Positions 44,631 to 53,863 of a DNA stretch of 64,000 nt are shown piece by piece; within the stretch, counting starts at the first letter, position 1, and each line of letters opens with the position of its first letter. Under the pieces are notes generated by a model. It ran no database searches and was not told where the DNA came from. It saw only the letters and a program-made list of their open reading frames with translations. The position numbers and the translations under genes are program-made. Location: NCBI GenBank assembly GCA_018241025.1, contig JAFEEQ010000017.1, forward strand, positions 62,001 to 126,000, written 5' to 3'. The DNA is from Pseudomonadota bacterium. Its GTDB lineage: Bacteria; Pseudomonadota; Alphaproteobacteria; Micropepsales; Micropepsaceae.

Positions 44631-45674
44631 GTGTCCTTCAAAGAACTCCCCATCTGGGCAAACGGCTCGCTGTTTCTTGCCGCCGCCGTCGCGATCTGGT
44701 TCGCAGGCGGCTGGCTCGCGCGGTTGATGGACCGGATTTCCGCGCGCACGGGGCTCGGACAGGCTTTCGTCGGAACCTTGTTTCTGGGAGCAACGACATC
44801 GCTGCCGGAGATGACGGCGGTCTCGACGAGTGCTTCGCTGGGCGATGCGGGGCTTGCGCTCAGCACATTGCTCGGCAGCCTGGCGTTCAACGTGTTGACG
44901 CTGGTGATCGCCGATGCGGCGATCGGCTCCCGTTCGCTGATGGGCCGGATCGCCGGACGCCCGACGGTGGTGCAGGGCTTGCTGAACATCGTCGCGCTGG
45001 CCCTCGCGGTGTGCGCGATCGTTGCGGGCGACCTGCTCGTGTTCGGTGTCGGCGTCTGGACGATCGCGCTGGCGCTGTTCGCGGCGCTGGTGTTCTGGAT
45101 CGTCAAGTCGCTGTCGGGGCGCGAGCCTTCCGGCGAGACGGCGCCGGCGAAGGACGGCGACGCGTCGCTGGGTGCGATAGCGATCCGCGCGGTGTCCGCG
45201 GCGGCGATCATCCTTGCCGGCGGCGTGGTTCTGGCGCGGGCGGGCGGCGGCCTCGCGGACCAGACCGGACTGGGCGGCGGCTTCGGCGGCTTTCTTCTCG
45301 TCGGCGTGGCGAGCTCGATGCCCGAACTGGCGACGGTGCTGGCGGCGGCGCGGCTCGGCAATGTGGTGATGGCGGCCGGCGACGTGTTCGGCACGAACAT
45401 CTTCAACCTCGCGCTGCTTCTGGTGGCGGACGCGTTCTATGCCGGCGGACCGATCCTCGACCGCGCCGGACGGTTCGAGGCGGTGGCGGCGCTGATCGCG
45501 CTCGCGATGACGGCGATCCTCCTGATCGGCATCGTCGGCGGGCAGCGGCGGACCTGGCTGCGCCTCGGTGCCAGCGCCTGGGCGACGGCTGCGGTGTATG
45601 TGGCGGGGATGGCGATCCTCTATGCGGTGCAGGGGAGATCGGGAGCGATATCTCCGGCGCGAACGTCCCGATAA
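44631..45674 (+). CDS. Sodium/calcium exchanger-family (CaCA, YrbG-like) antiporter
   Basis: A 347-residue protein with about ten transmembrane helices arranged as two inverted alpha repeats. Repeat 1 holds FLGATTSLPEMTAV (about residue 51) and repeat 2 VGVASSMPELATV (about 225); the Glu residues bind cation. The start is GTG 44631. The stop touches a strong hairpin (45675-45708) whose T-run lies on the other strand, so that hairpin serves the minus-strand transcript rather than this gene. Confidence 0.88.
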   Translation: MSFKELPIWANGSLFLAAAVAIWFAGGWLARLMDRISARTGLGQAFVGTLFLGATTSLPEMTAVSTSASLGDAGLALSTLLGSLAFNVLTLVIADAAIGSRSLMGRIAGRPTVVQGLLNIVALALAVCAIVAGDLLVFGVGVWTIALALFAALVFWIVKSLSGREPSGETAPAKDGDASLGAIAIRAVSAAAIILAGGVVLARAGGGLADQTGLGGGFGGFLLVGVASSMPELATVLAAARLGNVVMAAGDVFGTNIFNLALLLVADAFYAGGPILDRAGRFEAVAALIALAMTAILLIGIVGGQRRTWLRLGASAWATAAVYVAGMAILYAVQGRSGAISPARTSR

Positions 45675-45708
45675 AAACATCCCTCCACGGCGGCCGCCGC
45701 GGAGGGAT
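45671..45708 (-). terminator. Strong Rho-independent terminator (minus strand)
   Basis: ACATCCCTCC (45675-45684) pairs perfectly with GGAGGGATGT (45699-45708), and the 14-base interior contains a further palindrome CGGCGGCCGCCG. Read on the minus strand the stem ends in a run of T. The stem directly follows the stop codon of the convergent antiporter gene. Confidence 0.85.
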
Positions 45709-45904
45709 GTTCCTGATCCGCTCCCGGCAGGCCTGCCGCGCGCGCACGTGAAGCGCGGCGTCAGGCACCGAAACGAAACCACCGATCCGAGTTCTGGGCG
45801 GAGTAGGGCCTAAAGCCGCCGGGCGTCCCGGGGCGGCGTCCGCCTTCTTCCGCACGGCGACACGAGCTGGCGCCGGACCTGTTCTCTCGCGTGACGGCTC
45901 TCGG

Positions 45905-45934
45905 GGCTAAAGCCCGCGCAGCCTGCGGAAAATC
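45905..45934 (-). CDS. Putative 9-residue leader peptide (MIFRRLRGL)
   Basis: An ATG at 45934 is followed by eight codons and TAG. AAGGGAG (45942-45948) leaves an ideal 7-base spacing, and the predicted transcription start is about 24 bases upstream of the ATG. Three of nine codons are Arg. The stop codon falls in the loop of hairpin GGGCT-tt-AGCCC, as in attenuators where ribosome position controls folding. Confidence 0.4.
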
Positions 45935-45961
45935 ATCGGAATGCTCCCTTGAAATCGTCAG

Positions 45962-45976
45962 GAACATATAGCGAAC
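45962..45976. promoter_or_regulatory. LexA-type SOS box (GTTC-N7-GTTC)
   Basis: On the minus strand GTTC-GCTATAT-GTTC is an exact match to the direct-repeat LexA site described for Alphaproteobacteria. It covers the -10 element of the minus-strand promoter, a position suited to repression. One exact match by chance in 64 kb is possible, but its coincidence with this promoter is notable. Confidence 0.6.
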
Positions 45977-45993
45977 ATTGATTGACTTGTCAA
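45965..45993 (-). promoter_or_regulatory. Near-consensus sigma-70 promoter (minus strand)
   Basis: TTGACA (45993-45988), a 17-base spacer, then TATATG (45970-45965). The predicted start is about 45957-45959. The -35 hexamer contains the TGA stop codon of the upstream minus-strand gene. Confidence 0.75.
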
Positions 45994-46361: not shown

Positions 46362-46489
46362 CATAGTGGTATTCTGGACCTCATCAGGAATGCTTAGGTC
46401 CGAAACGCACAATCTTGACAGAGATTGCTTGTTCGTCGACCGAGTAAATCAATTGTGCTAGGAAAATTCTTCATTCGTTGGGCTTGTGT

Positions 46490-47269
46490 ATGACAGAAAT
46501 ATTTGTGGACGAAAGCATTCATTCGGATGCGGGTATCATTGTCACCGCTCTAGTTTTTGCAAAGCGTCCAATAGATGAATTGGTTTCTGACGCGCTCGTT
46601 CACTGCGGCCTTATACCTGGCGTAGATGAATACAAAAGTAGCAGCCCAAAAGCGAATAACGAAAAATCGCGTAAGCTTAGGGGGCTCTTGAAAAATATCA
46701 TGTGGAGTGAGGGATGCAGATTGGCCATTTGTATAGATCCTATAGAACACAGAGCGACCCTTGCAGATAGCGTGTTCAATTTGCTTGATTCAATTTATTG
46801 CGCAGGACGAATTTCAACTGGCGAGGTGCCGCAGCTTTATTTCGATGACGGACTGATTTCCTCAAAAGCGAGGCAGAGGTTTGCCTCAGGGCAACAATCC
46901 GGGCCGGTGGAGTTGTCGATCAAGTCAGACTCCAAGGCAGTTTTTGGGCTGCAATTGGCTGACATGTGCGCGCACTCGGTCGCAACGATGCTGCGTTCTC
47001 AGATGGGCCTCATTCATAAGGCAACATTGGTTGGCGAAGAAATGGGTTATGATCCCAATTCTATGATTGAGATTGGGTTCGAACTCTGGGCGGGTTTGCG
47101 TCACAATTTGAGTTCGGACGAGCGTTTGGTTGATGACGAGCGCCAAGATCAAGAGGCTATTGCAACGATGAAGCCCTTTGGACTTCGTGTTTCTGACGCA
47201 TGTTCAGATGATGTTCGAGCGGCTGCTCAAATGGCCTTGGGCAGCATTTACGTGGGATGCATACACTAG
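46490..47269 (+). CDS. DUF3800-like protein
   Basis: 259 residues from the ATG at 46490 (TTG 46478 is possible). The start TEIFVDESIHSDAGIIVTALVF matches the DUF3800 N-terminal motif (acidic 'DES' near residue 8), YFDDG mid-protein supplies a further acidic pair, and VFGLQLADMCAHSVATML matches the conserved LQ-LAD motif. The fold is thought to be RNase H-like; cellular roles are undefined, and members are frequent in mobile and defence-type islands. The DNA is clearly AT-richer than its neighbours and uses rarer codons (AAA, ATA, TTG), suggesting recent transfer. Confidence 0.75.
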   Translation: MTEIFVDESIHSDAGIIVTALVFAKRPIDELVSDALVHCGLIPGVDEYKSSSPKANNEKSRKLRGLLKNIMWSEGCRLAICIDPIEHRATLADSVFNLLDSIYCAGRISTGEVPQLYFDDGLISSKARQRFASGQQSGPVELSIKSDSKAVFGLQLADMCAHSVATMLRSQMGLIHKATLVGEEMGYDPNSMIEIGFELWAGLRHNLSSDERLVDDERQDQEAIATMKPFGLRVSDACSDDVRAAAQMALGSIYVGCIH

Positions 47270-53725: not shown

Positions 53726-53863
53726 GGACCTGACGCGAGGAACGAGGGAACGCGGTAGATACCGCGGCTGCCCCCGCAACTGTGAGCGGTGCAATCGGCG
53801 CATCCAGGTGCCACTGGGGAAGACCCGGGAAGGCGGATGCGGCGGCCGCGAGCCAGGAAACCT
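53726..53863 (+). promoter_or_regulatory. Cobalamin riboswitch
   Basis: Conserved blocks appear in order: GAGGGAACGCGGT, CCGCGGCTGCCCCCGCAACTG, GTGCCACTGGGGAAG, GGGAAGGCGG and GAGCCAGGAAACC. These are the L2/B12-box hallmarks of the adenosylcobalamin class. It sits between the binding-protein gene and the permease gene, 84 bases before the permease start, and would repress permease/ATPase expression when cobalamin is plentiful. Confidence 0.93.

Follow-up and report, generated by a model that had tools for sequence, protein, structure and literature searches.

A family of pseudoknotted RNAs with minimal open reading frames, many of them behind LexA-box promoters, in one alphaproteobacterial genus

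The known targets of LexA are mostly proteins of repair, mutagenesis and division, with few RNAs among them. Very short open reading frames, translation of which leads to peptidyl-tRNA drop-off, are known from the lambda bar minigenes. Two-codon minigenes have been reported as the most toxic of this kind (PMC8708949). Control of an RNA by LexA is as such already known: DinR of Klebsiella is a LexA-dependent small RNA that is cut from the 3' end of the dinI mRNA and pairs with ftsZ via Hfq (PMC10907235). The direct repeat GTTC-N7-GTTC, which the first-pass annotation had taken for the alphaproteobacterial LexA motif, matches the motif published for the alpha-Proteobacteria (PMC3323433).

In the current analysis we have characterised a locus in the window, the whole stretch of 64,000 nucleotides of a Micropepsaceae bacterium that was analysed. 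It comprises a promoter, a leader with a tiny ORF, a body and a terminator. The features are as follows, with R2 denoting a covariance model described below.

45965-45993, minus strand: sigma-70-type promoter, TTGACA (45993-45988), N17, TATATG (45970-45965); from the sequence, the promoter class being enriched over control
45962-45976, minus strand: LexA box GTTCGCTATATGTTC over the -10 element; from the sequence and motif counts
45907-45950, minus strand: leader with Shine-Dalgarno AAGGGAG (45950-45944), 7 nt, ATG at 45936 and a 9-codon ORF, MIFRRLRGL*, ending in TAG at 45907; from the sequence
45715-45892, minus strand: structured core, covariance-model positions 1-178; from R2 with the window left out of training
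45855-45892, minus strand: pseudoknot A/B; from family covariation, assigned by inspection in the window
45892-45886 with 45866-45860, minus strand: stem A, 7 bp, ACGCGAG/CUCGUGU; reproduced by the R2 alignment
45882-45878, minus strand: loop motif ACAGG
45875-45871 with 45859-45855, minus strand: stem B, 5 bp, CGGCG/CGCCG; by inspection
45798-45853, minus strand: stem E, 5 bp, GCGGA (45853-45849)/UCCGC (45802-45798), enclosing a variable region
45717-45777, minus strand: stem C, 8 bp, UUCGUUUC (45777-45770)/GGAGCGGA (45724-45717)
45769-45764 and 45733-45726, minus strand: GGUGCC and GGCCUGCC, both inside stem C
45673-45711, minus strand: intrinsic terminator, an 11-bp perfect lower stem with a T-run; from the sequence and folding

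The promoter TTGACA-N17-TATATG with GTTC-N7-GTTC over its -10 element, as read in the first-pass annotation, has been confirmed base for base on the minus strand. The same holds for AAGGGAG 7 nt before the 9-codon ORF, and the leader ORF has turned out to be a real feature of the family described below. A promoter scan program made no call at the locus because TATATG breaks its rule of T at position 6. The pattern GTTC-N7-GTTC occurs 110 times in the genome of the window as against 58 times for the reversed pattern, and GTTC-N5-ATGTTC 10 times as against 3. The composite pattern TTGA-N10-16-GTTC-N5-ATGTTC has about 100 matches in 96 genomes of the order and 4 in the own genome, the reversed control giving 4 and 0 respectively. 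In the own genome, boxes of the window type stand before lexA, uvrA, uvrD, nrdJ and a dnaE2-like gene (names assigned by eye from translations). The enrichment over the reversed control makes it very likely that the window site, at which GTTC-N7-GTTC covers a promoter of a class common to known SOS genes, is a LexA-controlled promoter.

In the terminator AACATCCCTCC is paired with GGAGGGATGTT (45711-45701 with 45686-45676) and is followed on the minus strand by TTTTTAT, which bears out the perfect stem and T-run noted earlier. A convergent gene for a Na/Ca-exchanger (44631-45674) has its stop TAA (45672-45674) abutting this terminator, the T-run of which reads for the minus strand and not for the exchanger. 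The leader TAG sits inside a hairpin, GGGCTTTAGCCC. Folded with its terminator the window RNA differs from shuffled sequences (z -3.47), and the body without the terminator folds like shuffled sequence (z -0.49). The body is GC-rich, as had been described, and its predicted hairpins do not stand out from those of shuffled sequence; single-sequence folding is therefore no evidence for its structure and comparative proof is needed. A protein reading of the region has been rejected, its ORFs being without Pfam match. Neither the ORF list nor codon-position GC, which is flat, gives a coding signal in the body.

A plain DNA similarity search of relatives matched only the LexA boxes of the uvrA/ssb and nrdJ promoters, and one against plasmids found none. 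Synteny showed that the exchanger and the upstream hypothetical gene of the locus are not shared with the genus. Since DNA similarity and gene neighbourhood failed, a promoter-based comparison of relatives has been used, in which the sequence downstream of LexA-type promoters was read in the 96 genomes of the order. Some of these promoters precede known SOS genes, and about 20 precede no gene and give similar transcripts with common parts, namely a Shine-Dalgarno with a tiny ORF, a pseudoknot, a linker, 3' motifs and a terminator. The pseudoknot consensus of the gene-less transcripts is CGCGAG-ACAGACAGG-GGGUGC-CUCGCG-GCACCC, an H-type arrangement of stems A and B, and the consensus 3' of the linker is GAAGCGAAGGUGCC ... 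GCCUGC..GUAGCUUC, followed by the terminator.

Two covariance models, both with the window excluded, have been built from 14 members (R1) and 56 members (R2); the E-values of searches with either rest on a shortened calibration. R1 recovers most of the held-out members (for example L125 at 7e-10, L114 at 7e-8 and L123 at 4e-6) and has matches in 36 of the 96 genomes of the order, many of them at different loci. Of the 69 genomes of the genus, 32 gave matches to R2 at E<=1e-3, 150 in all and with a maximum of 10 per genome. Among 385 genomes spread over the class, matches are confined to the genus and one weak outlier, with nothing convincing elsewhere. When the window and 20 members were searched against Rfam 15, the matches that reached the gathering threshold were tRNAs and a single cobalamin riboswitch. 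Eight members have also been searched at a relaxed threshold, and the sub-threshold matches lay outside the RNA or were due to chance. The first-pass annotation had recognised no structured RNA family, which agrees with the lack of any Rfam match within the RNA. The conservation in close relatives on which it had made its reading depend is seen in the structure and the leader, and is absent from plain DNA similarity.

Other elements in and around the loci have also been noted. The cobalamin riboswitch (RF00174, 81.5 bits) lies at 53745-53863 on the plus strand of the window. A gene for a DUF3800 protein (46478-47269, plus strand) lies upstream of the locus, and Rfam reported no DUF3800 RNA motif over the window. 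The commonest neighbour of family members is a citrate synthase gene, which adjoins five of them in different genomes (L150, L154, L163, L166 and L208).

The RNA is made up of helices A to F, including two pseudoknots. When 90 non-redundant members are aligned, the column pairs with the strongest covariation belong to stems A, E, F, C and D. Helix F is an unexpected long-range helix, formed by GGNN after ACA with NNCC in the linker. For the whole pseudoknotted structure in 56 sequences, 83.5% of the cells are paired and 221 are double-change cells, as against 84 in shuffled controls (0 of 500 as high) and 41-73 when the structure is slid. Helices B, D and F are not in R1, which made the alignment, so their covariation is not forced; A, E and C are contained in R1 and their covariation counts lean towards the model. 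RNAalifold run on the first MAFFT alignment was uninformative. Terminator-like hairpins are found 3' of 51 of 99 family members compared with 7 in the control stretch.

The association with LexA boxes has been assessed in a blind set of 80 matches that were found by structure and not by promoter. An exact GTTC-N7-GTTC lies within 170 nt upstream in 31 of them, as against none of 80 in a mirrored downstream control, and 11 of the 12 blind matches with at least 97 bits have a box. Since copies without a box exist, LexA control appears to be common and not universal. These comparisons establish, at the level of sequence, a family of RNAs with a covarying structure, many copies of which have LexA-box promoters.

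The mini-ORFs counted are those with a Shine-Dalgarno in front, no more than 20 sense codons beyond the start and a stop between -30 and +4 nt of the core start. Such ORFs are present in 47 of 87 distinct leaders (shuffled mean 7.6, maximum 13), and in 34 of the 87 the start is followed by 4 or fewer sense codons (shuffled mean 2.6, maximum 6). The stop position is sharp, with 20 stops at -5 and 10 at +1, which puts the start of stem A at 6 or 0 nt from the stop. Examples include ATGATTTAA, ATGAAGTAA, ATGTAA, TTGAAACAGTAG and MPKRR*. The ORFs of a second subgroup encode peptides of some 11 codons and have their stop 14-16 nt before stem A, within a hairpin (L075 MSKRKVRGLRP*, 16 nt; L201 MVDHHHRVLRP*, 16 nt; L119 MVENLPRRLWP*, 14 nt). 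Judged by its sequence, the window ORF MIFRRLRGL*, with its stop 14 nt from stem A as compared to 0-6 nt in the common form, belongs to this second subgroup. Neither the LexA box nor the mini-ORF is universal, about half of all copies having no box, or no mini-ORF, that could be recognised. Where it is recognised, the predicted mini-ORF has its stop at a constant position closely 5' of the first pseudoknot.

Reading downstream of LexA boxes has revealed additional elements. In relatives, the regions 3' of the boxes of several SOS promoters (L082, L100, L103, L104, L111 and L127) have a different common element, GGGGGAGGGGGTACC, with ACAAGATGTTGTG-like palindromes. At L096, L130, L131, L133, L134 and L138 (G125, G126) LexA promoters are followed by the motif GCTGCGACTTGAA, often with no evident gene; up to 18 such promoters occur in one genome and they are possibly a second family of SOS elements. 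At L051 and in relatives (L112, L117) there are LexA boxes before small ORFs with the motif GAPxGNxxALKxGxxT. A LexA box directly before a gene that resembles, by eye, 2'-5' RNA ligase has been identified in the own genome and in a relative (L016/L081, L079), which suggests an RNA-processing enzyme in the SOS regulon.

As R1 missed the window, covariance-model support for its membership of the family is moderate. The match of R2, with the window held out of its training, spans 45892-45715 and all 178 model positions, agrees with the hand-drawn register and scores 13.3 bits. The E-value is 0.00053 in a 451-nt region searched without filters, and 0.084 in 72 kb, where two non-family stretches scored slightly higher. 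In the R2 alignment the window stems are kept through wobble pairs and double changes, and the motifs ACAGG, GGUGCC and GGCCUGCCG are present. The window copy is without the ACAGACAGG/CATACAGG consensus except for ACAGG and has lost most of the CAUACAGG loop; of the ACAUACAGG/ACAGACAGG loop and helix F (GGNN/NNCC) ACAGG alone is kept, and the partner of F is ambiguous.

The own genome encodes further copies, at C19:12429 (47 bits), at C29:320655 (35 bits, with an exact LexA box 39 nt upstream), at C28:38310 and at C22:26751. The last two (L231/L232, G000:C28:38310-38498 and G000:C22:26751-26941) are without LexA boxes, have a common upstream TTGTTACAACCTTAGGTCTTGAAACG and look like a duplicated pair. 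Another locus of the own genome, L050 (C28:94822), has a LexA box, a leader ORF MVSRKIRALRP* (translated by eye) and the motif CATACAAG. A 19-nt sequence, GGCGCCAGCTCGTGTCGCC, is common to the window locus and L050 and lies equally far from the box in both (positions 88-106 and 89-107); random pieces share at most 11 bases. On these sequence comparisons the window locus is, with high probability, a member of the family.

The reading that we favour, and regard as likely, is that the locus is a stand-alone gene for a non-coding RNA of about 290 nt, a divergent member of the family, that would be repressed by LexA, gated by its mini-ORF and active in trans. LexA would repress the window copy and DNA damage would induce it. 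Ribosomes would bind at the Shine-Dalgarno and finish translation at the stop of the mini-ORF. The footprint of a ribosome whose A site holds a stop codon reaches about 9-12 nt beyond that codon. In the common form only 0-6 nt separate the stop from stem A, and a ribosome in the act of terminating would occupy one of the two strands of this stem and keep the A/B pseudoknot from closing. Such a footprint implies that a bound ribosome and the A/B pseudoknot should be mutually exclusive. In the window subgroup, where the stop is 14-16 nt from stem A and inside a small hairpin, the coupling may run through the hairpin. The RNA could signal how translation is faring under DNA damage, or react to it, and may act in trans by binding a protein, a ribosome or an RNA; as there is no gene downstream, the output would be in trans or would be the trapped ribosome itself. 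It is tentatively suggested that SOS-wired, multi-copy pseudoknotted RNAs, their fold set by a ribosome terminating on a minimal ORF, could form a translation-sensing, trans-acting arm of the damage response.

The strongest rival is an effect like that of lambda bar, in which damage-induced translation of a very short ORF would lead to peptidyl-tRNA drop-off and sequester ribosomes or tRNA in a toxic or growth-slowing manner, the body merely stabilising the transcript. Many copies do have two-codon ORFs (ATGATTTAA, ATGAAGTAA, even ATGTAA) behind strong Shine-Dalgarnos. However, drop-off needs no extensively covarying body, the ORF has 9 codons in the window, where two would be expected, and up to 16 elsewhere, and it is the distance from stop to pseudoknot that is fixed whereas ORF length is variable; this explanation is considered improbable, though worth keeping in view. 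In a further reading, the SOS response would induce the transcript as a messenger for a micropeptide (MIFRRLRGL and relatives), and its 3' region would be structured. The peptides of one subgroup are partly alike (MSKRKVRGLRP, MVDHHHRVLRP, MVENLPRRLWP, MIFRRLRGL and, by eye, MVSRKIRALRP of L050) and those of another end in ..IRR, but the 3' ends of the ORFs in the hairpin or beside stem A can account for the likeness. Many members, with 0-3 sense codons after the start, are too short for a peptide while body and stop position are unchanged, and a micropeptide is accordingly quite unlikely.

The tiny ORF, alternative structure and terminator look attenuator-like, as would befit a cis-acting leader of a neighbouring gene. 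The window locus has no co-directional downstream gene, the next gene being convergent, and at 56 of 89 family loci the gene that follows likewise lies on the other strand. The 174 flanking proteins fall into 152 clusters with few recurrent neighbours. Such diverse neighbours and opposite-strand downstream genes point to a stand-alone gene rather than a leader, and cis attenuation has very little probability. The reading proposed initially, a damage-inducible small RNA or attenuator-like RNA, is supported by the LexA promoter class, the covarying family without Rfam match and the enrichment of boxes in the blind set, the attenuator half being the less likely as a cis device. It may also be that, even with a real family elsewhere, the window copy is no more than a LexA-like promoter that arose by chance beside GC-rich sequence, or a family copy in decay; the weak R2 score and the body that folds like shuffled sequence would fit. 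Yet promoter, box, Shine-Dalgarno, ORF, A/B pseudoknot, E, C and terminator stand in family order, the 19-nt identity with L050 lies at an equal offset from the box, and stems are intact via wobble and double changes, so this too is improbable, slightly more so than the minigene effect.

No description of such RNAs has been found in open-access text, and it is the RNA family with its leader-pseudoknot design that appears to be previously undescribed. The favoured stand-alone, LexA-linked RNA bears on the SOS response in that, with up to 10 copies of a folded RNA per genome, many of them under putative LexA control, RNA appears prominent in the damage response of this lineage. The conserved placing of a stop codon beside a pseudoknot offers a concrete, testable proposal for translation gating of an RNA. 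Rfam 15 does not contain the family, and R1 and R2 allow it to be found elsewhere.

Among described systems, OLE, GOLLD and ROOL (PMC12286853) are similar in having a large conserved structure found by comparison, with function unknown; the new RNA is much smaller, has a LexA promoter and has no Rfam match to any of them. With phage lambda bar and two-codon minigenes such as that of the axe-txe leader (PMC8708949) it shares a strong Shine-Dalgarno and ORFs of one or few codons, but these are not known to be joined, with a set spacing, to a conserved RNA that forms a pseudoknot. The SOS type I toxin-antitoxin RNAs (tisB/istR, symE/symR, dinQ/agrB) resemble it in LexA control, short ORFs and structured transcripts, whereas the new family is without an ORF of membrane-toxin size, is multi-copy and belongs to one genus. 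To our knowledge, no known LexA-dependent sRNA or SOS type I toxin-antitoxin RNA resembles the new structure. As with DinR, the supply of a non-coding RNA is predicted to go up through LexA after DNA damage; unlike DinR, the window RNA has a LexA promoter of its own, a pseudoknotted covarying core and a mini-ORF.
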